From Microcaldota archaeon (GTDB lineage Archaea > Micrarchaeota > Micrarchaeia > Micrarchaeales > CABMGC01): a stretch of DNA of 35,730 bases. The notes beneath the pieces were generated by a model. That model did not search any database, was not told the origin of the DNA, and worked only from the letters and a program-made list of their open reading frames with translations. Positions 1 to 35,382 of this stretch are shown here, piece by piece (the first letter of the stretch is position 1; the number at the start of each line of letters is the position of its first letter). The translations under genes were made by a program, and so were the position numbers. The DNA lies in the NCBI GenBank assembly GCA_021850625.1, contig JAJZLJ010000004.1, positions 1 through 35,730 of the forward strand, given 5' to 3'.

Positions 1-447
1 GCACCATCCATAACTCACGTGAAATATCCAAATAGGCTCATGTGCAGTATTAACTGCAATCTCTTCTAAATTATCATCTACTAAAAGCACTTCTATATCT
101 CCTAAACCTAAATATACATTTGCCATGTATGCTAGAAGTACCTCTTTGTTATCCCCGCTTATTCCTGGAAGATATTTGTCTATGACTGAGGATGCAGCCT
201 CTTTATATTTTCTATTCAATTCTTTAAGATATTTTTCATCTTGTATTCGTGTTTGATCTATTGAAACTAAGGAAAGCAGCTCTGCGCGCAAAGACATCAA
301 AAGTATTTTTGTAGCATCTCCAACCCCTGGATAAGAAACTTCATATGTAGGTACGAACTCATTTTTTTTAGAGATAACTACATTTACCAAAAGCCCATTG
401 GCATTTAGTGTATACTTGACTGCTTTACCATCTTCTAATTCCGCCAT
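1..447 (-). CDS. Type II/IV secretion (archaeal pilus) ATPase, N-terminal part, cut by window edge
   Basis: The first 149 codons are visible; the gene runs off the left edge. The sequence includes GLGDIEVLLVDDNLEEIAVN, the N-terminal-domain signature that precedes the RecA-like core in the VirB11/GspE/FlaI/TadA secretion ATPase superfamily. The Walker motifs lie outside the window. Such ATPases drive assembly of archaeal type IV pili or archaella from prepilins with class III signal peptides. The ATG at 445-447 starts 9 nt after the stop of the upstream coiled-coil gene on the same strand, so the two are probably co-transcribed. Two class III signal-peptide proteins lie within 12 kb and are plausible substrates, but that link is inference. 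The family call rests on the N-domain only. Confidence 0.72.
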   Translation of the reverse strand, partial: MAELEDGKAVKYTLNANGLLVNVVISKKNEFVPTYEVSYPGVGDATKILLMSLRAELLSLVSIDQTRIQDEKYLKELNRKYKEAASSVIDKYLPGISGDNKEVLLAYMANVYLGLGDIEVLLVDDNLEEIAVNTAHEPIWIFHVSYGWC

Positions 448-456
448 AATTAAACC

Positions 457-1746
457 TTATTTTTTCTTATCCTTTTTGTCTTCTTTTTCATCCTTTCCTA
501 TTTTAGAAAGTCTACCATTAAGTTTTCCTACTTTATCATCTATCTCCTTCACTTTCTTTTCTCCTTCTAATATTTTTTTATATTTTCCAAAAGGCGTCTC
601 TTTTTTATCATTGCCTACTCTTTTTAATATTTCAGATAATTCTGCAATCTCTTTTTTTGTATTTTCGCCTTCTTTTGTTAGTTCTTCAAGCTCCTGTCTT
701 ATCTGATTTATCTCTTGATACATACTATCTATTTTTTTAAGTTTTTCAAGTTCTTCGCTTACCTTTTCATCAACGCCTTCAAATTTTTTAACACCTGTTG
801 AATAAATTCTATCTATACGCTGTTTTGCTAACAGTGCCTTGTCTAAAACTGCGCCCCTCTCTTTTTTTACTTTTATGTTTGTCTCAGCAGCTTCTCTTTT
901 ATATTCTTCTAATTTTTCATTATACTTTGAAAGTTGTTTTTGTATATTATCTGCAAGATTATTGAGAACCTTCTCTTCATTTTTAACATTATCTCTAAAT
1001 TCAAGTATTTTTGTTCTCTCCTCATTTATCCTTTTATCAAACTCCTTAGTTATATCATTTACACTGCTATGCATATATGAAGCCTTACTTCTTATATCAT
1101 CTATTATGGCTCTGGCATTTTTAGAAACCAAGTCAACATTTTCAAATGAAAGATACTCTCTGCTAAAATCAAAACTACCGGTTTTTAATTGTTGAATCAT
1201 TGCCTCAACCTGATTCATATACTCTACAACTCCGTTTATGTTTTTTGAAGCTTCTGTTCTAAAACCTAACAATTCTGCAGAGGTATTTTTTATAATCGGT
1301 TCATTAGTTTTCATAGTTTCTTCTGCATTTTTCATATACGCATTAAACTCTTTAATCTTATTATTTAATGCCTCTATGTTTTTTCCCTGCACCTTCAAAT
1401 TATCCTGTATTACGGCTGTTTTTATATCATTTAATTTTTTAATTTCATCTGTATTTACCTTCTGCTTACCTTCAAAATTTATAGTCCCATCTCCAGTTAC
1501 TCCACTAGTCTTATCATCATTATCTATACTAATCGATGTTGTAGTGGGGCTTACATACATCTTTCCAAGTTTATACACTATAAGGATGAGTTTTGCTTTT
1601 TCTAAAACTGCCGACCATTCTAATACGGTACCTTCACTAACACCAAGGACAGAGGCCAAAGTGGTTGTATCCACCTCCCCATTTTTATTTATGTAATTAA
1701 GTAATGAATCAATGCCTGTTACTACATCAGTTGCCATAATATTCAT
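457..1746 (-). CDS. Winged-helix/coiled-coil protein upstream of the pilus ATPase
   Basis: About 429 residues. Residues roughly 5-70 look like a small winged-helix domain (DSLLNYINKNGEVDTTTLAS, then a recognition-helix-like VSEGTVLEWSAVLEKAKLI). A Ser/Thr/Asp-rich linker follows, then more than 250 residues of charged heptad-like coiled coil and a Lys/Asp-rich tail ending KKDKKDKKK. There is no signal peptide or membrane segment. The ATG at 1746 is chosen because a TATA-like box (TTTAAGTA, minus strand, near 1769) lies about 25 bp upstream; the in-frame ATG at 1737 (MATDVV) is nearly as good, and a TTG at 1758 is less likely. Adjacency to the secretion ATPase suggests a cytoplasmic accessory role in pilus assembly, which is inference. 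I do not recognise the family. Confidence 0.7.
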   Translation of the reverse strand: MNIMATDVVTGIDSLLNYINKNGEVDTTTLASVLGVSEGTVLEWSAVLEKAKLILIVYKLGKMYVSPTTTSISIDNDDKTSGVTGDGTINFEGKQKVNTDEIKKLNDIKTAVIQDNLKVQGKNIEALNNKIKEFNAYMKNAEETMKTNEPIIKNTSAELLGFRTEASKNINGVVEYMNQVEAMIQQLKTGSFDFSREYLSFENVDLVSKNARAIIDDIRSKASYMHSSVNDITKEFDKRINEERTKILEFRDNVKNEEKVLNNLADNIQKQLSKYNEKLEEYKREAAETNIKVKKERGAVLDKALLAKQRIDRIYSTGVKKFEGVDEKVSEELEKLKKIDSMYQEINQIRQELEELTKEGENTKKEIAELSEILKRVGNDKKETPFGKYKKILEGEKKVKEIDDKVGKLNGRLSKIGKDEKEDKKDKKK

Positions 1747-1890
1747 AAACAATAACAAAAGAATACTTAAATAGTTTTGCTTATAACCTTTTTCTTATGC
1801 AACACATTATTATGAAAAAAACCTGTAAAAATAATAATTCTCCAAAACTGCTATTAACATATATGCTTAATTTATTCTTGTGGTGTTACT

Positions 1891-3660
1891 TTGTTATTTA
1901 ATGAGGTTGCGCAGTATTATCAAAAATTAGAAGAGGTATCTTCAAGGCTTTCAATGATTGACATACTTTCAGAAATGTTCTCAAAAACCTCAAAGGAAGA
2001 GATAAAAGCGCTTATTTATCTTACACAAGGTGCATTGTCTCCTCCATTCGAAGGCAAAGAAATTGGAATGGCAGAAAAACTTGTAATTTCTTCTCTGGCA
2101 ATCAGTACTGGAGCAGAACAAAAAACAATAGAAAAGCTTTTTAGTACCACTGGAGATTTAGGACAGACAGGAGAAAAACTCGTAATAACCTCAAAGCTTA
2201 AGTCCTTCAATTCAAAGAAACTTACTGTTTTGGATTTATTTGAATCATTGACAAAGATTTCTAACACCTCGGGGGTTGGAAGCAAGGACATAAAAATACG
2301 TCTTTTTGCAGGTTTAATATCTAATTCATCACCTATAGAAACACGATACATAATACGTTTTTCTCTTGGTACATTAAGATTGGGGTTGGGTGACGCTACA
2401 ATACTAGAAGCACTTTCCAAATCAATTACCGGAAATAGAGATTCAAAAGAACTTCTCGAAAATGGTTATAATATCTGCGGAGATTTAGGCAAGGTTGCAT
2501 ATATTCTTTTTGATAAAGGAATAAAAGGCATAGAGAATATGGAGGTTGAGTTATTCAATCCTATACGGCCTGAACTCGCAGAGCGTGCAAAGAGTTTCGA
2601 AGAGATAATCGAGCGTATGGGGGTTGCATGTTCTGTAGAAGGCAAGTATGATGGTCTACGTGCACAGCTTCACATGGACAAGAAAAAAAATAAAATTGAG
2701 ATCTTCTCGAGAAATCTGGAGCGAATGACGTTAATGTTTCCAGATATATTAAAAAATGCTTTTTCCGAGATAAATGCAGAAAGCATAATAGTAGAAGGAG
2801 AAGCAATAGCGTATAACGAAAATACCGAAGAGTTTCGTCCTTTTCAAGAAACTATACAAAGAAAAAGAAAACATGAGGTAGAGGAAAAAAGTGCAGAGGT
2901 TCCACTGCATCTTTTTCTATTCGATATAATGTATTTAAATGGAAAACAACTCATGTCATTGCCATATGAAGAACGCAGATCAAAATTAGAAGCTGTACTT
3001 GTAAAACGAAAGATGATACTTCCATCTGCAAAAATAATAGCAAAGACATCCAAGGAGATCGAGCTTTTCTTCAATAAGGAAATAACTGAAGGCCTAGAAG
3101 GTGTAGTTGCAAAGGATCTTAATTCTAAGTATGTCGCAGGAGCAAGGAAATTTAGTTGGATAAAGATGAAAAGAAGCTACCGAAGCGAACTTTCTGATAC
3201 TGTAGATCTTGTAATAATTGGTTATTTCTCTGGTAAAGGATCTAGAACAGAGTTTGGTCTTGGTGGTCTTCTTGCTGCAGTATATAATGACAAAAAAGAT
3301 TTATTCGAGAGCATAACTAAAATAGGAACCGGATTTACAGAAAAGCAAATGCTTTCTTTAAGTGAATTATTAGGTAAGATAAAAACAAAGAAAAAGCCTG
3401 CTAGAGTAGAATCTACCGTAGAACCTGATTTTTGGGTGGATCCTAAATATGTGGTAGAAGTAAGAGCAGATGAAATCACAAGATCTCCTATGCATATGTG
3501 TGGAAAGGAAACATATTCGCAGGATGAAATAGGTTATGCACTTAGATTCCCAAGGATTGTAAGTGATGGAGTTCGCGATAAAAAAGCAGAGGATGCTACT
3601 ACAACAAAAGAAATTCTAGAGATGTTTTTGCTTCAAAAGAAAAAACCATTATCTGATTAA
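1891..3660 (+). CDS. lig: ATP-dependent DNA ligase
   Basis: A 589-residue archaeal/eukaryal-type DNA ligase, the normal size for archaeal Lig1. It seals 3'-OH/5'-phosphate nicks during Okazaki fragment joining and repair. An N-terminal helical DNA-binding domain (about 1-220) precedes the nucleotidyltransferase core. The adenylated lysine is K252 in motif I, EGKYDG. Later motifs include FDIMYLNG (III), EGLEGVVAK (IV) and WIKMKRSY (V). The C-terminal OB domain carries the FWVDPKYVVEVRADEIT and RFPRIV signatures. The start is TTG at 1891 (TTG TTA TTT AAT); no ATG upstream is in frame, and the next residues FNEVAQYYQKLE match the usual N-terminus. It is divergent from the coiled-coil/ATPase pair across 144 bp. 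Confidence 0.97.
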   Translation: MLFNEVAQYYQKLEEVSSRLSMIDILSEMFSKTSKEEIKALIYLTQGALSPPFEGKEIGMAEKLVISSLAISTGAEQKTIEKLFSTTGDLGQTGEKLVITSKLKSFNSKKLTVLDLFESLTKISNTSGVGSKDIKIRLFAGLISNSSPIETRYIIRFSLGTLRLGLGDATILEALSKSITGNRDSKELLENGYNICGDLGKVAYILFDKGIKGIENMEVELFNPIRPELAERAKSFEEIIERMGVACSVEGKYDGLRAQLHMDKKKNKIEIFSRNLERMTLMFPDILKNAFSEINAESIIVEGEAIAYNENTEEFRPFQETIQRKRKHEVEEKSAEVPLHLFLFDIMYLNGKQLMSLPYEERRSKLEAVLVKRKMILPSAKIIAKTSKEIELFFNKEITEGLEGVVAKDLNSKYVAGARKFSWIKMKRSYRSELSDTVDLVIIGYFSGKGSRTEFGLGGLLAAVYNDKKDLFESITKIGTGFTEKQMLSLSELLGKIKTKKKPARVESTVEPDFWVDPKYVVEVRADEITRSPMHMCGKETYSQDEIGYALRFPRIVSDGVRDKKAEDATTTKEILEMFLLQKKKPLSD

Positions 3661-3703
3661 TTAAAACAAAAAGTTTTCATTTATTTGAAGAGGTTTAGTG
3701 ATA

Positions 3704-3802
3704 ATGAAAAAACGAGTGTCATCATATGAAAATGGAGTTAAAGTTGAGTGTGTAAAAAAGTATATCAGAAAAAGAGTCTATGTTATAATCATAAAGTACT
3801 AA
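3704..3802 (+). CDS. Possible small basic protein, 32 aa
   Basis: A 32-codon ORF (MKKRVSSYENG to the C-terminal VYVIIIKY) in the gap between ligase and the first propeller gene. An AGAGGT Shine-Dalgarno-like sequence sits about 10 nt upstream of the ATG. The peptide is Lys/Arg-rich with a hydrophobic C-terminal end. I do not recognise it, and an ORF this short could arise by chance in AT-rich sequence; the ribosome-binding site is the only positive evidence. Confidence 0.25.
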   Translation: MKKRVSSYENGVKVECVKKYIRKRVYVIIIKY

Positions 3803-3880
3803 TCATAGACTTATGTTCCAATCAGCTTTAGCAATATATTTAAATATATTTATCTTTTAAATTATCACAGACAGGATATT

Positions 3881-5293
3881 ATGAAAATTTTATTTGAACA
3901 TTTTAAGGCTCAAAGTGCAATGGAATATTTAATGACTTACGGCTGGGCTATTCTTCTGATAGCAATAGTTCTAGTCGCATTTTTTACTCTTGGGGTATTT
4001 AAACCAAATAAACTGACCTCAAGTGCATGTGTAGCTCAAACTGGTTTTCTTTGTTCGCAACCTGTTCTTTCAACCAATGGAATACTTCAGATGGAGGTAG
4101 GGGTTAATAACGGGCAGCAATTATCAGTAATTGGTGATGCATGTACCAATTCTTCTAATATTCCAACACAAACTTCATTTACTGACTTCTATTCAAATAT
4201 GAATCTTAATCCAGGAGTACAATATCAATTCACCTTTCAATGCCCACTCACATCAAATATTATCGGAACACCATTTACTGGAAAGTTATGGTTACTTTAT
4301 GATAGCGCATCTACCTCAAATCAAATAATGTCTATAGGAACAGTTTCATCTTCAATTACAACCTCCAACTCAATAGTATTAACTACTGGTGGTATACAAC
4401 CAACCGTTCCTAGTACTTATTATATTCCTTCTGGTGGCTATGGTTTTCAATATATTTCATTTTTACCATCCGGTAGTTACTTTTATCTTTCTGCACTCGG
4501 ATCCGGTGATTTTTTAAATATTAGCACAACTTCTTATAATGTTGCAAATACCTTATTTTTATCTTCTTTTGCAGCACCATATTCACTTGCATTCTCTTCT
4601 TCCGGAAATTATGCATATGTTGTAAATACTGGTGGCTATAACGGCCAGGCATATAATGGAAATATGTTGATTATAAATATGCTTACTAATACTGTAGTAA
4701 ATACAATAGAATCTACGTCCTTCAATTCTCCATTAGATATTGCATTGTCTGGCAGTTATGCGTATATTACAAATGAATACGGTGATGTTCCGAGTGTTTA
4801 TGATGGCAATATATTAATTATAAGTACCTCAACAAACTCTATAGTAGGGTCGATTACTTCAACATCCTTTAACGCTCCAAGAGGTATTTCAATATCTCCA
4901 GATGGAAGTTATGCATATGTTGTAAATAGTGGCGGTTATAACGGTCAGGCATATACTGGAAATATATTAATTATCAGTTTAATTTCTAACTCTATAATAG
5001 GTTCTATAGAATCTCCGGCATTTTCTTCATTATATGATGTAGCAATAGCTCCGTCTGGAACTTATGCATATGTAACTAATTCCAACGGGCAATCTAACGG
5101 TGCAAACATGGGCAATATCCTAATAATAAACACCGCACTGAACTCTGTTGTAGGGTCTATAGAACCAAGTACAGCACCTTCGTATTATGGTCTTACTGGA
5201 ATTGCTTTTTCACCGTCTGGAGCTAATGCATATGTTGCTTCTCCAAACCAGCAGGCTGCACCTTCGGGCTTCTTTATCATTAATAATAATTAA
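3881..5293 (+). CDS. Class III signal peptide (prepilin-like) protein with YVTN beta-propeller
   Basis: A 470-residue secreted protein. The N-terminus MKILFEHFKA/QSAMEYLMTYGWAIL is a textbook archaeal class III signal: short basic leader, cleavage before Q11, E+5-type SAMEY, then a hydrophobic helix to about residue 37 that could pack into a pilus core. Residues about 45-165 form a domain with cysteines at C-x6-C (CVAQTGFLC), ACT and FQCP. This domain recurs in the propeller genes at 8722 and 22182. From about residue 180 to the end there are YVTN-type blades (GSYAYVVN, GNILIISxxTNSIVGSI) typical of surface beta-propellers. A strong AT-rich TATA-like element lies at about 3835-3850. Likely a pilus-linked or membrane-displayed adhesin; the ligand is unknown. 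Confidence 0.85.
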   Translation: MKILFEHFKAQSAMEYLMTYGWAILLIAIVLVAFFTLGVFKPNKLTSSACVAQTGFLCSQPVLSTNGILQMEVGVNNGQQLSVIGDACTNSSNIPTQTSFTDFYSNMNLNPGVQYQFTFQCPLTSNIIGTPFTGKLWLLYDSASTSNQIMSIGTVSSSITTSNSIVLTTGGIQPTVPSTYYIPSGGYGFQYISFLPSGSYFYLSALGSGDFLNISTTSYNVANTLFLSSFAAPYSLAFSSSGNYAYVVNTGGYNGQAYNGNMLIINMLTNTVVNTIESTSFNSPLDIALSGSYAYITNEYGDVPSVYDGNILIISTSTNSIVGSITSTSFNAPRGISISPDGSYAYVVNSGGYNGQAYTGNILIISLISNSIIGSIESPAFSSLYDVAIAPSGTYAYVTNSNGQSNGANMGNILIINTALNSVVGSIEPSTAPSYYGLTGIAFSPSGANAYVASPNQQAAPSGFFIINNN

Positions 5294-8618: not shown

Positions 8619-8721
8619 TTTTATAATATGGTTAATATATTTTTTACATTACATAAACTTCGATACATAATAAGGTTATAAAAATATTGCTGTATTATAT
8701 TACTTATTGAAAGGTATTATA

Positions 8722-11637
8722 ATGCAACTGCTTAACAGAATAAAAACTCTTACAAATAAAGATTTACATAACTGCAAAAACTTTTCAGAAAAAGAAGTAT
8801 TTTCAAATCGAATAATTTCTAAGAACAATTTCCTAACTAAATTTACTAAATTTTTTACAAAATTATTAATGTCTCAAAGCATAATTAGGTATCAGAAACT
8901 TTTAGCTTCAAAGAAGATAACTCTTGAAAACAAAGTTGCCAGAGCTTCATCAAAACCTATTCACGCGCAAAGTGCTATGGAGTATCTGATAACATATGGC
9001 TGGGCAATATTAGTATTAGCTATTGTACTTTCTTTACTTTTTGCATTTGGTTTTTTCAATGGCAATAATGCAGTAGGGCAGATATGTAGCATAAATCAAG
9101 GTTTTGATTGCATTAATTATTATATGAGTACAAATGGCGTTGCTGTTTTTACAATTAGCCAGACCTCTGCATCATACATTAACGTTACTGAGATTGGATG
9201 TTCTTCAGATCCAAACAATCAGCACCTTACTCCTTTAAGTACGCCATCTAATCAGATCTATTTGCCATACGCCACTGCATATAATTTTTCAGTGCAATGC
9301 TATACTCCTTCTGGACCTGCATCCTTGCAATTAGGTCAGGTATTCTATGGTACTTTATATATTTCTTATGTTAATGATGTAAATAGTTTTGAAGGAGCTG
9401 CTACAGGAAAAATAACTATAAAGCCAAGTATAACTGGCATATCTAATGGCGGAGGAACTTCAGGCTCTGGCACTGAAAGTTATATCCCAGTTACATTAAC
9501 AAATTACCAGTCAAATACCGTATCACAGAATTTCCAGCAAATGATATACTTTAATCCACAAAGCTATTCTGCAAATGAAATGGCAAACCTAAGCAATATA
9601 GAGTTTACTGCAGACGCTCCAATAGGAACTTCCGGAAATGTTCCGTTAAATGCATGGATTGAAAGCGGTGCTTCTTCATCTGCCTCAAATACTGTCATGT
9701 GGATAAATTTAGGCAGTAATACAATCGGCGCTGCAGGAACAGGTTCTAATACGTTAACAATTTATATGAATTTCCTCAGCAACAATAATCCAGTAACGCA
9801 AGGCTATACGGGTTATGCACCGCAGTTGTGGTGCGCAAGCGGTTGCTTCCAGACAGGATACGCGCAATACGACGACGGAGCGAATGTGTTTCTTTTATAT
9901 TTCAATGGTAACACTATTCTTAGCGATTTTACTAGTCCAGACACTCTCTCTCAAGCAAGTGTAACTGGTCCAACAGGCACTACTATAAATGTTATTAGCA
10001 TAACAGGATATGCAAGTAATTTTGGTTTTGTTTATACAGCAAAATCAATTACAGATCAAGCTGTCATATCTGAATCAAGTTCACAGCAGAATGGTCTTGG
10101 AGCTGGTGGTTTAAGTGCGGACAACGGTCAAGTGTCAATTTTAGATAAAACTTCATCAACTAATTTAAATGCTATATCTGTAGATATGGGTTATGGTAGT
10201 GCTTATTTCGTAAATGACTATTTTGTAGGTGGAGCAAGGTCTGAAGTAAATCAACAAGGTTCAGCGAATGCAAATTGGCATTATGCTTCTGTTACTTACG
10301 CAGGCTCATCTGCGACAAGTTGGTCTGGATATATAGCTCCACAACTTTATTCTACCTCTGGAGGATATTCTGGCAGTGTTTCAGATAATCCCTTCAGTTC
10401 TTCCACCTCTTTATACTTGGGGCTTATTGGCAATGTTAATAGTGCTGACGAGTGGCAAACATATATAAATTGGATGCGTGCTCGTGCATATCCTCCTAAC
10501 GATATAATGCCAAGTTTTAGTTTTGGAAATTATAATAATCAACTTATGGGTTCGGTATCTCTAAGTAGTACTCAATTATTTTTAAATAATGCAGAAACAC
10601 TTACAGCAATGGTTTCTGGAGGAACCTCGCCGTATACTTATCAATGGTATGAAGAAGCTCCAGGAGCAGGATCATTTTCAGCAATAAGTGGTGGAACTTC
10701 TCAGTCTTATCTTTTTTCAACAACAAGCAAAAATACGCAGGGAATATATAAATTCTATGCTGAAATTACCGATAGTAATGGCGTACATGTAAATAGCAAT
10801 ACTGCTAGTATAAATGTTATACAAGAGCTTGGTCAATACGCATATGTAACTAATTACGCAGGAGGAAATGTAGTTATAATAAATACTGCAACAAATACAG
10901 TAGTAAACTCAATACCAGGTAGTTACAGCAATCCTGACGGCGTTGCTTTCTCTCCAGACGGAAGTTATGCATATGTTGTAAACTGGGGAACAGGATATAT
11001 AGATACAATAAATGCGCTTTCGAATACGATATTAGGATCATTTTATATAGGATATCCTCAAGACCAAGGAGTTGCATTTTCTCCTTCAGGAACTTATGCA
11101 TATGGAGTAATAAATGATGCAAGTGTTGGGCCAATAGCATATATAGAAAATAATGCAGTATCATCCGTAATTAGCATTAATGCAGGATTAGGCTGTCCTT
11201 TAGGTGTCGCATTTTCAAAAACAGGTGCATATGCATATATAGTGAATATGTATTCTACAAATAATTGTAATAGTGGCACTGGAAATGTAATAATTATGAA
11301 TACCGCAACAAATACCGTTATTAATTCAATAACTCAAGGTTTAGATAATCCTGCAGGAATAGCAATTGCACCTAGTGGTACATATGGATATATTACAAAT
11401 AGAGGAAGTAATAACGTAGTAATATTCAATACTGCAACAAATACTGTAATCGGAGCTATAACGCCAAGTGACTTCAGTACTCCTAGCTTTGTGGCTTTCG
11501 ATCCTACTGGAACCTTTGCTTATGTCGCAAATTACGGCTCTAACAATGTAGTAATTATAAATACCGCAACAAATACTGTTGTTAATTCTATAACAAATGG
11601 ATTTAATGGACCAGTAGGTGTTGCATTCATACCATAA
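8722..11637 (+). CDS. Giant prepilin-like protein: class III signal, DUF2341-like, Ig-like and YVTN propeller domains
   Basis: A 971-residue surface protein. The class III signal KPIHA/QSAMEYLITYGWAIL occurs only after about 82 residues, so the cytoplasmic leader is unusually long; an internal ATG at 8869 would shorten it to 33. After the hydrophobic helix comes the Cys domain shared with its paralogues (CSINQGFDC, GCS, VQCY). Residues about 253-600 resemble DUF2341 (NIEFTAD, LNAWIESG, MWINLGS, LTIYMNFLSNNN). An Ig-like domain (about 609-705, YQWYEEAPGAG) follows, then YVTN propeller blades (AYVTNYAGGNVVIINTATNT) to the end. ATG 8722 is chosen over TTG 8707 because AAAGGT lies just upstream; a TATA element is at about 8676-8685. 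Probably a pilus-linked or membrane-anchored adhesin. Confidence 0.82.
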   Translation: MQLLNRIKTLTNKDLHNCKNFSEKEVFSNRIISKNNFLTKFTKFFTKLLMSQSIIRYQKLLASKKITLENKVARASSKPIHAQSAMEYLITYGWAILVLAIVLSLLFAFGFFNGNNAVGQICSINQGFDCINYYMSTNGVAVFTISQTSASYINVTEIGCSSDPNNQHLTPLSTPSNQIYLPYATAYNFSVQCYTPSGPASLQLGQVFYGTLYISYVNDVNSFEGAATGKITIKPSITGISNGGGTSGSGTESYIPVTLTNYQSNTVSQNFQQMIYFNPQSYSANEMANLSNIEFTADAPIGTSGNVPLNAWIESGASSSASNTVMWINLGSNTIGAAGTGSNTLTIYMNFLSNNNPVTQGYTGYAPQLWCASGCFQTGYAQYDDGANVFLLYFNGNTILSDFTSPDTLSQASVTGPTGTTINVISITGYASNFGFVYTAKSITDQAVISESSSQQNGLGAGGLSADNGQVSILDKTSSTNLNAISVDMGYGSAYFVNDYFVGGARSEVNQQGSANANWHYASVTYAGSSATSWSGYIAPQLYSTSGGYSGSVSDNPFSSSTSLYLGLIGNVNSADEWQTYINWMRARAYPPNDIMPSFSFGNYNNQLMGSVSLSSTQLFLNNAETLTAMVSGGTSPYTYQWYEEAPGAGSFSAISGGTSQSYLFSTTSKNTQGIYKFYAEITDSNGVHVNSNTASINVIQELGQYAYVTNYAGGNVVIINTATNTVVNSIPGSYSNPDGVAFSPDGSYAYVVNWGTGYIDTINALSNTILGSFYIGYPQDQGVAFSPSGTYAYGVINDASVGPIAYIENNAVSSVISINAGLGCPLGVAFSKTGAYAYIVNMYSTNNCNSGTGNVIIMNTATNTVINSITQGLDNPAGIAIAPSGTYGYITNRGSNNVVIFNTATNTVIGAITPSDFSTPSFVAFDPTGTFAYVANYGSNNVVIINTATNTVVNSITNGFNGPVGVAFIP

Positions 11638-12497: not shown

Positions 12498-12842
12498 GTG
12501 TTGTTAAGTTCGCCGTATACTTATCAATGGTATGAAGAAGCTCCAGGAGCAGGATCATTTTCAGCAATAAATGGTGGAACTTCTCAGTCTTATCTTTTTT
12601 CAACAACAAACGGAAATATTCGGGAAATATATAAATTCTATGCTGAAATTATTGATAGTAATGGCGTACATGTAAATAGCAATATTGCTAGTATAAATGT
12701 TATACAAGAGCTTGGTCAATACGCATATGTAACTAATTACGCAGGAGGAAATGTAGTTATAATAAATACCGCGACAAATACTGTTGTTAATTCTATAACA
12801 AATGGATTTAATGGACCAGTAGGTGTTGCATTCATACCATAA
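12498..12842 (+). pseudogene. Truncated copy of the giant propeller gene
   Basis: This reading frame encodes part of the Ig-like domain (SPYTYQWYEEAPGAGSF), the first YVTN blade, and then the last 23 residues of the giant gene, ending at the same GVAFIP and stop. It lacks the signal peptide, pilin helix, DUF2341-like region and 226 propeller residues, so it should not be exported or fold as a propeller. Substitutions relative to the parent (N for S, GNIREI for KNTQGI) show it has diverged since duplication. The homology starts at 12510; the codons before it are unrelated. It may be a dead remnant or a silent donor for recombination with the parent. Confidence 0.8.
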
Positions 12843-22181: not shown

Positions 22182-23597
22182 TTAGACAATTTGTCGATTA
22201 TTGTTTAAGATTATTATATTTCCATTACTCGAACCACTATTACTGTTTAATACATACGCATAAGCTCCATCTGGGGCTATTGCAATAGAGTAAGTATTGT
22301 TAAATTCCAAAGAGGATATTGACTCTTGGAGTTGGTTTGTAATAGTATTCAATATAAGAATATTTCCAGTTTGTTCAGGACCTCCTCCATTGTTTACTAT
22401 ATACGCATAATTTCCGTTAGGTGCGAAGGATATAGAATAAGGGTAATTAAATGCTGATGAATTTATCAAATTAATTGAGTCTTGTGCAGAATTTATAAGA
22501 GTCAAATATCCAGTCTGGTTTGATCCATTATATGTGTTCAATATATATTCATCTGCGTTATTTGAAAATCCTACTCCATCCGGATTTGAAACAAAGGAGG
22601 TGTTTATTGTGCTTATTATTGAATCATTTATAGTATCTATAGTAAATACAGTCTTATTTATAATTTGATTATAATTGCTATTATTGAAAGTAGCTATCAC
22701 ATCTATGTAATTTCCATTTACAGTTATAGCATACGGTGCTATAATTAATTCTGAGCTTATTTCTTTAACTATACTATCAGTCGAGGTATTTATTACTAAT
22801 ATATTATTATTTCCTTCATTTGAAACATACGCATAAGCACCATTCGGTGTAAAAGATATATCGGTAGGGGAATTAAATTGCGGAGAGTTTATAGAGCCTA
22901 CTATGGCGTTTGTTGCAGTGCTTATTATCAATATATTTCCTGTGCCTATAGCCGTTGTAGCATTAGCGCTGTTGTTTGTAATAATCTCTGAATTGCCATT
23001 TTTGTTTATTACATATGCATAATTACCTGATGGAGAAAATGCTATTGCAGTAGGCGATGCAAATGCTGCAGAAGAAATTGAAGCTGAAAGTTCAGGTAAA
23101 AGGCCGGTATAAAATGGTATAGCATTAGAGCTCGTTTCCTTGCCAGATATAGATGCGAACATGGTCTGTACCCTACTTGAATTATTTTTTGAATATGAAA
23201 GCCATAAGTAGACTGTAGAATCTCCTATTAATTGATTTTCAACAGGACATTGAAAAGTAAGTGTGGAAGTGCTTCCTGGAACTATTGTCAGATTTTTAAG
23301 GAACCAATCATAAGAAGAATTTTGCGGTTGGACGCTGGAACTAGTGCATGCATCAGCAGAAACGGTCAATGTTCCTATACTTTCGTTTATATTTATCTTC
23401 AACATACCTTTTGTATTAATTACCTGTCCGTAGCACGAAAAGCCTGACTGAGCAAAACAACCACTTCCAATTCCAATCGAATAAAACATCAGTAAAAGTG
23501 CAACTGCAATAACAATTACACTCAAAGCTACAATTTTACGATATCTTTTAACATAACGCTCGGTTTTTTTAACATTATGTTTTAGAGCCTTAGCCAT
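22182..23597 (-). CDS. Membrane-anchored YVTN beta-propeller protein (third paralogue)
   Basis: A 471-residue protein related to those at 3881 and 8722. The same Cys domain is present (CFAQSGFSC, ACT, FQCP), then propeller blades (NYAYVINKNGNSE, GNILIISTATNAIVGSI). The N-terminus differs: a basic KHNVKKTERYVKRYRKIVAL is followed by a single hydrophobic helix (about 26-46) without the QSAMEYL cleavage motif. It is therefore likely an uncleaved N-anchored protein, not a pilin-like subunit. Many Asn-x-Ser/Thr sites fit surface glycosylation. TATTTATATA (about 23629-23638) is about 32 bp upstream of the ATG. It is divergent from the NikR-like gene. Confidence 0.82.
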   Translation of the reverse strand: MAKALKHNVKKTERYVKRYRKIVALSVIVIAVALLLMFYSIGIGSGCFAQSGFSCYGQVINTKGMLKININESIGTLTVSADACTSSSVQPQNSSYDWFLKNLTIVPGSTSTLTFQCPVENQLIGDSTVYLWLSYSKNNSSRVQTMFASISGKETSSNAIPFYTGLLPELSASISSAAFASPTAIAFSPSGNYAYVINKNGNSEIITNNSANATTAIGTGNILIISTATNAIVGSINSPQFNSPTDISFTPNGAYAYVSNEGNNNILVINTSTDSIVKEISSELIIAPYAITVNGNYIDVIATFNNSNYNQIINKTVFTIDTINDSIISTINTSFVSNPDGVGFSNNADEYILNTYNGSNQTGYLTLINSAQDSINLINSSAFNYPYSISFAPNGNYAYIVNNGGGPEQTGNILILNTITNQLQESISSLEFNNTYSIAIAPDGAYAYVLNSNSGSSNGNIIILNNNRQIV

Positions 23598-32352: not shown

Positions 32353-32698
32353 TACATAAAAAGTAAAGAATATGATATTTTATAAAGACTATAAAATTAT
32401 CGAACAAGTTCAGAGAATATTTTTAGAGGATTGGACTCTGCAACTTTACCATTTAAGTAATCTGATAAGTCAATTATTTTAACTTTTGCATTTGGGATAG
32501 CTGTTTCTAAATACTGTTCTTCTTCTGTCAAAATCTTCATTTCAGATCTTTTTGTAGGAGCATCAATATATTCTGCAAATTTCACAGCAGTTGCATTTCC
32601 TATACTTTTATTTATTGCTATTGCTTCACATCCAGTATCAATAGCAAATTTTATCAATGCATCTACAACAATACTATAATCCTTTTTCAGTGCATTGT
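32353..32698 (-). repeat. Direct repeat, copy 1: 3' end of the repeat-protein gene plus flank
   Basis: Matches 35383-35730. The 302 coding bases (32397-32698 against 35429-35730) align without gaps and differ at about nine positions by hand count; the 3' flank (TACATAAAAAGTAAAGAATA onwards) is also shared, with a small indel. This shows a recent tandem gene duplication that includes the terminator region. Confidence 0.9.
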
Positions 32699-35252
32699 TC
32701 AAAGTTATGCCTCCTTCAAATGAATCAACTAATAATACTGGTTTATTATTCTCCATTCTCCCAAATGCACATATTGCAACTCCATGTACTTTTTGTTTTT
32801 CGAATTCTTTTGCTGTAATACTTGAATCAGTAACTGTAAAGTTTATAAGAGCTATTCCACTGTCAAGTGCGTACTTCAAAGCAGCATATTCATTTACTCC
32901 TCCTATAAAGCAACACGCTCCAGTTTCACTACTCTTTATTTTAATTATATTGTTTTTGTTATCAGTATACGCTACTACTCTGTCACCTTTAGAGATATTT
33001 TTAACACTTCCCATTATAAGAGGTTCAAGTTTTCCTATAAAATCATATATTGGTTCCTTAATAACGATATCTCTTTCAGCGACTGCATTCTTGAAAACGT
33101 CAATTACCTTTCTTGCATTTTCTTTTGATGGATTTTGAAGATAATTGTTAAATTCAACTGCAAGTTGTTTTTTGTATGGACCTTTAATACTTGCCCATCT
33201 ACCAAATACAGACAATATATCTTTTTCTTGGAAATAACCACTTTCAATAAGTAGTTTTTTTGCATTATCAAAGTTTGTCATATCTCTTGAACCGTTAATT
33301 GCATACACCATTGTTTCTAATGCGGTTTTTTGAGAGATCTCAAGAACCTTTGATTCGCCAATTTGTTTTTCGGATATAACTTTACTGGTTATCTCTTTAT
33401 TGTTAAATGGAGATATCTGCTTTAAATTATTAATCCTTCTTTCAATAAAAGCATTTAACTGTTTAGAATTTTCTTCAATATACTCAATATCTTTTAATAG
33501 AATAAATGATTCTTCTATGTCAAATGCCATATATCCTTTTATTCCAAACTTTTCAAATACTGGTAAAATTGATTTTTGTACATACTGTTTTATCTTATTA
33601 GGACCTATAGAAAACAATGTATTCATATCTATACTAAGTAATTTTTTACTATTTATCTCGTATGCTGTACTTGCAATATCATGAATAAGTAAAGTTGCAC
33701 TACCATTCTTAACATTAGCCATTGCAATTCTACAAAACTCTTCATCATAGTTTATCTCTACATCTTCCATCTCTCCAATATTTTTGAGTGATTTCGAGAG
33801 CAAATCATAATAGTCTATTGCATTTTTTATTATACCTTTTGATTTGATTAAAGTGGAAAAATCAGAACCTGCACTTATAGCAATCGCAATTGCACCTCTT
33901 CTAAGAAGCTCAGGATTTCTTGTAATTGCTACCTCTTCAAAATAACTACCGTCTTCAAGATACTTTAAAAGTTCAGCCAATTTTTTTGTTGTGAAATTTT
34001 CATTCGTAAGTACATCTACTGCATTTGTATTTATGATTGCTTCAAAGTACCCATAAGCAGCATGATATCCTAACTCTTTCGCAAAGCCCATAACCTTTTC
34101 ATTCGTAAGTGCATCTACTGCTTTTGTATCTGCGATTGCTTTAAAGTACATCTCAGCAACCTCAGAGCGTAACTCCTTCGCAAAGTCTATAACCTTTTCA
34201 GTCGTAAGTGCATCTACTGCTTTTGTATCTACGATTGCTTTAAAGTACATCTCAGCAACATCAGGCCCTAACTCCTTTGCAAAGCTCATGACATTTTCAT
34301 TCGTAGATTCATGTACTGCTTCTACATACGCGATTGCATAGAAGTATCTTTCCACAGCATCATAATCTAAATCGTCTAAATCGTCTGGAAATCTCGTAAC
34401 ATTTACATCTGTAAGTGCATCTACTGCTTTTGTATATCCGATTGTGTAGAAGTATTTCTCCGCAACATCTGGTTCATTCTCCTCTACAAGATTTATAACA
34501 TTTTCCATGAGTACCTTTTCATTTGTAAGTGCATCTACTGCTTTTGTATATCCAATTACGTGGAAATACCGTCCTGCAACATCAGGCCCTAACTTCTCTA
34601 TAAAGTTTATGATATTTCGCGTGAATATTTTTTGATCTGTAAGTGCATCTACTGCTTTTGTATCTGCGATTGCTTTAAAGTACTCATTCGCAGCATCAGA
34701 TTCTAACGTATACACAAAATTTATAACATTTTCCGTGAGTACCTTTTCATTCGTAAGTACCTCTACTGCTTTTGTATCTGCGATTGCTTCAAAGTACCCA
34801 TAAGCAGCATGATATCCTAACTCATTCGCAAAATTTATAACATTTTCCGTGAGTACCTTTTCATTCGTAAGTGCATCTACTGCTTTTGTATCTGCGATTG
34901 CTTTAAAGTACTCATTCGCAGCATCAGGCCCTAACTCCTTCGCAAAGTCCATAACCTTTTCATTCGTAAGTGCATCTACTGCTTTTGTATCTGCGATTGC
35001 TTTAAAGTACTCATTCGCAGCATCAGGCCCTAACTCCTTCACAAAAATTATAATTCTTTCATCTGTAAATAAATCTACCATTCCTGTACTTCTGATTGCT
35101 TTTAAGTACTCTTTCACAGCATCTAATTTCTTCATCTCTTTTACACAATATTCAAATCTATTCTCAAAAGTATCGGAATTTAAATTTGTAGCGGTGTTGC
35201 CTTCAGAAACCTCATTTTGCTGTTTACAGGACATTTTTAATTTTTTAGCCAT
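32397..35252 (-). CDS. Large helical-repeat protein with unknown C-terminal domain
   Basis: A 951-residue soluble protein, no signal peptide or membrane helix. Residues about 41-427 hold eleven repeats of 33-38 residues (unit such as ELGPDAANEYFKAIADTKAV then DALTNEKV), which should stack as an alpha-solenoid. A helical middle follows (about 430-740). The last about 200 residues form a separate alpha/beta domain (GACCFIGGVNEYAALKYALD, GVAICAFGRMENNKPVLLVD, FAIDTGCEAIAIN), with a vague GNAT-like pattern I cannot confirm. ATG 35252 is used; GTG 35261 adds three residues. A partial paralogue lies immediately upstream. Function unknown; scaffolding or protein binding is likely for the solenoid. 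Confidence 0.82.
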   Translation of the reverse strand: MAKKLKMSCKQQNEVSEGNTATNLNSDTFENRFEYCVKEMKKLDAVKEYLKAIRSTGMVDLFTDERIIIFVKELGPDAANEYFKAIADTKAVDALTNEKVMDFAKELGPDAANEYFKAIADTKAVDALTNEKVLTENVINFANELGYHAAYGYFEAIADTKAVEVLTNEKVLTENVINFVYTLESDAANEYFKAIADTKAVDALTDQKIFTRNIINFIEKLGPDVAGRYFHVIGYTKAVDALTNEKVLMENVINLVEENEPDVAEKYFYTIGYTKAVDALTDVNVTRFPDDLDDLDYDAVERYFYAIAYVEAVHESTNENVMSFAKELGPDVAEMYFKAIVDTKAVDALTTEKVIDFAKELRSEVAEMYFKAIADTKAVDALTNEKVMGFAKELGYHAAYGYFEAIINTNAVDVLTNENFTTKKLAELLKYLEDGSYFEEVAITRNPELLRRGAIAIAISAGSDFSTLIKSKGIIKNAIDYYDLLSKSLKNIGEMEDVEINYDEEFCRIAMANVKNGSATLLIHDIASTAYEINSKKLLSIDMNTLFSIGPNKIKQYVQKSILPVFEKFGIKGYMAFDIEESFILLKDIEYIEENSKQLNAFIERRINNLKQISPFNNKEITSKVISEKQIGESKVLEISQKTALETMVYAINGSRDMTNFDNAKKLLIESGYFQEKDILSVFGRWASIKGPYKKQLAVEFNNYLQNPSKENARKVIDVFKNAVAERDIVIKEPIYDFIGKLEPLIMGSVKNISKGDRVVAYTDNKNNIIKIKSSETGACCFIGGVNEYAALKYALDSGIALINFTVTDSSITAKEFEKQKVHGVAICAFGRMENNKPVLLVDSFEGGITLNNALKKDYSIVVDALIKFAIDTGCEAIAINKSIGNATAVKFAEYIDAPTKRSEMKILTEEEQYLETAIPNAKVKIIDLSDYLNGKVAESNPLKIFSELVR
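33972..35132 (-). repeat. Eleven in-frame coding repeats of 99 or 114 bp
   Basis: Units encode 33 residues (for example KELGPDAANEYFKAIADTKA then VDALTNEKVMDFA) or 38 residues when LTENV or a variant is inserted after NEKV. Several neighbouring units are almost identical at DNA level (CTACTGCTTTTGTATCTGCG recurs many times), while units near the edges are degenerate. The array should be prone to slippage and copy-number change. Confidence 0.92.
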
Positions 35253-35382
35253 GACATTCACTAATCATTACACTTAATTTTCTATTTTTTGATATTTATA
35301 CTTAACTAATCTTCGCAGAGTTTTTTCGAGAAATAAATGTACAGGAACTTGCCAGGACGTTTTAATTGTTTCTTTATATACA

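Follow-up and report, generated by a model that had tools for sequence, protein, structure and literature searches.

The DNA analysed here (the window) is the entire contig C8, 35,730 b in length, from a metagenome-assembled genome (MAG) of a Microcaldota archaeon; the assembly that holds it totals 0.81 Mb and is incomplete, at 83%. Two genes in its left third, at 3881-5293 and 8722-11637, encode proteins that are very probably class III modular pilin-like proteins, judging from a class III signal, a hydrophobic helix, a cysteine module and a C-terminal YVTN-type propeller. These genes and the related features of the window are as follows.

3881-5293, forward strand: modular pilin-like protein 1, with a class III signal (FKA/QSAMEYL), a helix at 2-36, a four-cysteine module at ∼45-175 and a six-bladed YVTN propeller at ∼178-468.
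8722-11637, forward strand: modular pilin-like protein 2, with a long leader, IHA/QSAMEYL, a four-cysteine module, a DUF2341-like region, a PKD/Ig-like region and a YVTN propeller at ∼705-971.
12498-12842, forward strand: internally deleted partial duplicate of the 3' end of the 8722 gene, in which the last blade directly follows the PKD-like region and blade 1.
22182-23597, reverse strand: propeller paralog, with the same four-cysteine module and YVTN propeller, a basic N-terminus and a plain hydrophobic helix, and no class III motif.
1-447, reverse strand: N-terminal 149 amino acids (aa) of a clade-A FlaI/VirB11-type (PF00437) type IV filament ATPase, running off the contig end.
457-1758, reverse strand: 433-aa winged-helix and coiled-coil protein ('coil'), directly upstream of the ATPase in relatives too and part of the pilus operon.

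Both of the first two open reading frames (ORFs) are intact. The 3881 product is 470 aa long and has a short leader ending in FKA, with the cleavage context FKA/QSAMEYLMTYGW; QSAMEYLMTYGWAILLIAIVLVAFFTLGVF stands directly after the leader and is followed by four cysteines (C-x7-C, C, C) and then by the YVTN-type repeats. The 8722 product is 971 aa long, its ORF opens at 8707 with TTG, and its cleavage context is IHA/QSAMEYLITYGW; the DUF2341-like region between its cysteine module and its PKD/Ig-like region was assigned by eye alone. The hydrophobic helix extends over roughly 30 residues in both proteins, and they bear the N-terminal marks of a class III pilin in the KA/Q or HA/Q context, the glutamate at position +5 and, for 3881, the modelled helix at 2-36.

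AlphaFold2 (AF2) models were built for the window proteins only, from shallow alignments of 4 rows. In the model of 3881, a monomer, residues 2-36 form a single continuous helix, with modest confidence, and 24 strands over residues 178-468 make up six four-stranded blades, mostly with a predicted local distance difference test (pLDDT) score of 75-95 and with weaker loops. The best PDB match of this model found by Foldseek is 1L0Q, a YVTN/PKD archaeal surface-layer protein (E=3.4e-17). The propeller of 8722 matches TIGR02276 (E=3.7e-18) and, using phmmer, 1L0Q (E=9.8e-28), although its AF2 model has a mean pLDDT of 40.7 and is poor except for the helix and part of the propeller. A preliminary description of this DNA had recognised two class III proteins, of 470 and 971 aa, each with a cysteine domain and a YVTN propeller, and this is borne out by the motif, TIGR02276, 1L0Q and the AF2 and Foldseek results. 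The structure predictions that it proposed returned the helix and six blades for 3881 but a mostly poor model for 8722, and the continuous helix of 3881, modelled with modest confidence, is compatible with pilin-like packing of the N-terminus.

The two proteins belong to a larger family. When the 140-residue N-terminal module was searched against the genome, 18 places matched at E≤0.01, and the resemblance to the class III motif is therefore not due to chance. These places represent about 17 genes, of which 22182 lacks the class III motif and the other 16 have it, and the pieces at the end of contig C9 and the start of C21 look like halves of one gene. Four members are stand-alone modules (166-178 aa), one has 264 aa, and eleven are large or formerly large (370-1211 aa), with extensions that include the propeller, DUF2341, Gly-rich regions, and Ser-rich regions with TIGR03790, among others; DUF2341 (PF10102) is present in three other family places. 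The family occupies ∼25.9 kb, or 3.2% of the assembly, and start codons are uncertain for its long-leader members. While both of the proteins first described are real, an account limited to them was too narrow, and it missed both the 22182 paralog and the 12498 duplicate. Pilin-module proteins at L025 (1358-3142, forward) and L030 (1117-3513, forward) have spacers rich in Ser/Thr and are related in their C-terminal regions; TIGR03790 scores 60 bits, just under its cut-off, in the 798-aa L030 protein, and by eye is common to the 594-aa L025 protein.

The module is present in all 40 relatives and in 199 of 245 genomes sampled across the phylum (E≤1e-10). Fusions of the pilin module to YVTN repeats occur in the genus mates G001, G002, G003, G004 and G005 (for example L078, L079, L081-L084 and L087), and also more distantly in G013, G018 and G038 (L097, L091 and L095, respectively). 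In G030, about ten pilin-helix proteins of ∼300 aa are encoded in tandem over 22 kb (C1, 581304-603719), which suggests local amplification. Neither the window proteins nor a stand-alone member matched the pilin models of Pfam and NCBIfam, and they lack the IPR012902 pilin motif; the family is thus one that would function like a modular pilin, yet is not a member by the bacterial IPR012902 signature. A 9-row alignment contained no stretch of sufficient conservation for scanning the collection. A search of the genome contig collection with the 3881 module gave no confirmed relative, and scans of viral contigs found no relatives and hence no sign of a viral origin.

The N-terminal signature is kept to the same degree regardless of what follows it. 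Among 33 modular members Q+1 and Y+10 are invariant (100%) and E+5 is present in 93% (D in 6%); for 25 small members the values are 100%, 100% and 92%, respectively. A basic residue occupies position -2 in 28 of 33 modular and 22 of 24 small members. Retention of E+5 within the helix argues that the helix is more than a membrane anchor, which would not need it. The first cysteine pair is kept in 59-60 of 63 modules, whereas the third and fourth cysteines are both present in 32, both absent in 23, and found one alone in 4; joint presence or absence of the latter pair fits a single folded domain with two disulfides.

These patterns bear on the possibility that the helix is simply a tether to the cytoplasmic membrane, with or without cleavage of the leader, and that no assembly machine is involved. 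Several propeller proteins speak for it: the 22182 paralog keeps the cysteine module and propeller behind an ordinary basic and hydrophobic N-terminus, a plain anchor resembling that of 22182 is present in a propeller protein of 984 aa from G003 (L086), and secreted propellers without a pilin helix exist (contig C27, L098). However, the E/D+5, Q+1 and basic-A/G/L-Q context, needless for an anchor, is equally strict in modular and small members, and we regard plain anchoring as quite improbable for the class III proteins. YVTN repeats occur in 28 of the 40 relatives, and many of these proteins have a C-terminal membrane anchor and no pilin helix; the propeller is thus a general surface module for which the pilin helix is one carrier among several. 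The L098 protein (1477-4998 of that locus, on contig C27) is at least 1173 aa long and contains ∼20 YVTN repeats; it has a Sec-type signal but lacks a pilin helix, and judging from its sequence reaches the surface with this propeller type along a different route. We also note 16 N-glycosylation sequons in the 22182 paralog versus 2 in 3881.

The 1-447 fragment alone gave no secretion family match. The end of contig C13, however, shares a 323-b overlap (99%) with the start of the window and carries the rest of the ATPase gene (PF00437, 128 bits), followed by genes for a 205-aa protein and two PF00482 (T2SSF/TadC) platform proteins of 361 and 335 aa. Convergent to these are genes for two pilin-like proteins, of 157 and 178 aa, on either side of one for an 892-aa protein with a helix and three LamG domains. 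In a relative, the unbroken contig L102 has the same order (coil, ATPase, 195-aa protein, TadC, TadC, with convergent genes for 180, 887 and 157 aa) and the same ligase and FtsZ flanks, which supports the join of C13 to the window independently. In close relatives the ATPase is 69-82% identical. An A24 prepilin peptidase (PF01478), the sole one found in the assembly, is encoded at C9:28679-28978. With PF00437, two PF00482 proteins and PF01478 in the genome, and the ATPase and platform adjacent, the parts of an archaeal type IV filament machine are in place. The ATPase named in the preliminary description is hence FlaI/VirB11-type, by way of C13 and L102, although the window itself contributes merely a 149-aa fragment; the membrane core and prepilin peptidase for which it advised a search are both there, the former as two T2SSF proteins beside the ATPase.

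Which ATPase serves the pilins is a separate matter. Nearness to the ATPase had been offered as evidence for assembly, but the argument that these are pilus genes since they lie beside it was rejected: L102 and L104 have the same coil-ligase-FtsZ synteny without a propeller pilin, and clade A shows no enrichment for neighbouring module genes. An argument from this being the sole type IV machine was likewise rejected, as relatives have 2-5 type IV ATPases each, most having two or three, in three well-separated and well-supported clades. The neighbourhoods were compared in seven near-complete relatives, scoring a module gene within 3 kb, with P values uncorrected and three clades examined. A module gene lies near clade A at 1 of 7 loci (0.63 expected), near clade B at 3 of 7 (0.86 expected, P=0.04) and near clade C at 0 of 6. 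PF00482 was found at exactly two places in each of eight relatives, and those mapped lie at the clade-A locus; the clade-C operon encodes two proteins, of 235 and 251 aa, with no Pfam match, which may be divergent platforms. Module-family pilins are present in or beside the clade-A platform cluster in G003, G005 and G028. The single PF00482 pair beside clade A, together with these module genes at the platform in three genomes, links clade A to the pilins, a weaker argument than proximity would have been, and clade A with its TadC pair is probably the assembly platform.

A different motor could nonetheless drive genuine modular pilins, namely the clade-B ATPase of ∼440 aa, perhaps sharing the platform and serving either as an alternative motor or for retraction. 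A module gene adjoins the clade-B gene in G008 (at a distance of about 40 bp), in G023 and in G028, the enrichment strengthens from the value above to P=0.013 (also uncorrected) when the distance is 4.5 kb, and clade B lacks a PF00482 pair of its own, with no platform adjoining it in the eight relatives checked; it may use the clade-A platform as a second motor. But the enrichment is weak and was found after examining three clades, no module gene neighbours clade B in the genus mates G002 and G003, and in the assembly studied here one ATPase was found, with no match to clade B. We consider clade B unlikely to be the motor that drives them.

The 892-aa LamG protein of the C13 cluster (L022 2392-5070, forward) has a pilin-like N-terminal helix followed by three LamG/ConA-like domains (PF13385), and is conserved in L102. 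It scores 60 bits against the NCBIfam TafC fimbrial model, below the cut-off. Lying within a pilus cluster, it has the look of a bacterial modular pilin of the lectin type (PMC8179133), and may be the archaeal analogue of such pilins.

Signals of this class also serve in a bindosome-like mode of display, in which proteins cut by the peptidase are moved or clustered by a type IV pilus (T4P)-like machine into short complexes in or under the surface layer (S-layer), and the propellers would be ligand-capture or envelope parts. The large sugar-binding proteins GlcS and AraS of Sulfolobus have class III signals, are handled by PibD and BasEF, and associate with SlaA with no appendage seen (PMC4187195). 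The size and domains of the proteins studied here (propeller, LamG, TIGR03790) are more like those of surface proteins than of fibre subunits, and the closest solved propeller, 1L0Q, is itself from an archaeal surface-layer protein. The clade-A ATPase does match the bindosome_BasE model, although at 138.7 bits, far from the cut-off of 1000 and less than its 255.5 bits to the FlaI model (cut-off 550). On the other hand, the many stand-alone module members of ∼170 aa resemble ordinary pilins, Pfam and NCBIfam recognise no solute-binding domain in the window proteins, a search that did not extend to ABC transporter partners, and thin filaments, maybe pili, have been seen on Microcaldus ARM-1 (PMC11329633). 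On balance a bindosome-like role is rather unlikely.

We slightly favour modular type IV pilins, archaeal and with propeller effectors, as the interpretation of 3881 and 8722. Several observations weigh against it. The leader of 8722 is ∼81 aa from the first ATG, far longer than usual, and its true start is uncertain. The cysteine module of 3881 (residues 36-179) is mostly modelled at pLDDT <50, and a profile of the pilin module yielded only chance-level matches among PDB sequences, with no solved relative at E<0.4; a pilin fold there is accordingly unproven. The 22182 paralog, in which the class III motif appears to have been lost or replaced, shows that a propeller could be displayed without a pilin signal. 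One ATPase and one peptidase were found at ∼83% completeness, where relatives have 2-5 ATPases, and there may be another motor, as the module genes near clade B also imply.

If 3881 and 8722 are indeed modular pilins, the precursor would be inserted by way of its class III signal, and the A24 peptidase would cleave before Q+1, as established pilus biology suggests, leaving a hydrophobic helix with E+5. A type IV filament or pseudopilus, consisting mainly of the ∼170-aa stand-alone members, could then take up the helix, pulled in by the clade-A ATPase and TadC-like pair. By analogy, incorporation of modular members into the filament is marginally the better bet. The C-terminal propeller would thereby be exposed on the cell exterior, either at the tip or branching from the side, and bind a ligand on a host cell, a neighbour, or a mineral or mat, and the ∼17 members with their different C-terminal modules would constitute a repertoire of interchangeable display heads. 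Adhesion of propeller-tipped fibres to host, mat or mineral is the step that we infer with the least support, although host adhesion is plausible given the DPANN lifestyle and given that related co-cultures show filaments at the points of contact with the host (PMC8975820, PMC11329633).

The heads may also change rapidly. The partial duplicate at 12498-12842 matches the PKD-like region and first blade of the 8722 gene at 93.5% over 291 b and its last blade at 97.2% over 106 b, with a 51-b overlap between these matches, and looks like the product of recombination between near-identical blade repeats, that is, of active propeller remodelling. A more speculative extension, which we think possible but doubtful, is that a single type IV filament throughout the order bears a large, rapidly remodelled repertoire of pilin-fused heads, among them propellers, LamG lectins and TIGR03790 domains, and acts as a combinatorial organelle for host or surface recognition in these presumably host-dependent DPANN archaea. 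Elsewhere in the window, a 954-aa protein encoded at 32397-35261 (reverse) contains an array of 99/114-b repeats, and a near-identical second copy of its C-terminus lies at the right end of the contig (35429-35728, reverse), which points either to paralogs in tandem or to an assembly that ended at the repeats.

Modular pilins would bear on the way in which DPANN archaea identify and attach to a host. A searchable module (QSAMEYLMTYGW and CX7C) attached to large binding domains provides concrete candidates for DPANN pilus subunits and adhesins, and the modular pilin principle, described from bacteria, would extend to archaea. Pili-like connections have been reported for ARMAN (PMC5498576), filaments occur at contact sites of Micrarchaeum harzensis (PMC8975820), and Nanohaloarchaeota genomes have T4P-like clusters with pilins unannotated (PMC9563170); a combinatorial organelle, if real, would supply the pilins that are hard to annotate in DPANN genomes. 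We found no description in the open PMC literature of a propeller-pilin fusion, of a four-cysteine pilin module family, or of an archaeal modular-pilin repertoire per genome.

Among known systems, we note the parallels to PilB and PilC of Streptococcus sanguinis, in which a functional domain is grafted onto a pilin and which represent more than 1,200 modular pilins widespread in bacteria; archaea are not mentioned in that text (Raynaud et al. 2021, PMC8179133). Both share a class III signal with E+5, a small pilin module, a bulky C-terminal domain (vWA or lectin in theirs) and a T4P machine in the genome, whereas the proteins described here are archaeal, with a four-cysteine pilin module absent from Pfam, a YVTN effector, and at least 11 large members in one small genome. 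The Sulfolobus solfataricus bindosome (Bas) likewise combines large functional proteins bearing class III signals with a prepilin peptidase and a type IV-like ATPase and platform, but its cargo consists of ABC-transporter sugar-binding proteins, whereas the domains here are of propeller, LamG or peptidase-like type and ride on a dedicated pilin module of which stand-alone copies are also encoded. The PilC/PilY1 tip adhesins put a beta-propeller on a type IV pilus for adhesion, a role that here is presumed; PilY1 is not a pilin, however, and its propeller (IPR008707) is itself the carrier, docking on minor pilins, whereas 3881 and 8722 have a propeller of the YVTN type with a covalent link to a pilin-type helix. 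Lastly, the YVTN/PKD surface-layer proteins (1L0Q; Mia14, PMC5498576) have the same propeller type, provide the top structural and sequence match, and parallel the PKD-like domain beside the 8722 propeller. Those of Mia14 are described as secreted, with no class III pilin module mentioned. LamG expansions and T4P loci were also noted in Mia14, where some of the LamG genes are linked to T4P loci (PMC5498576).

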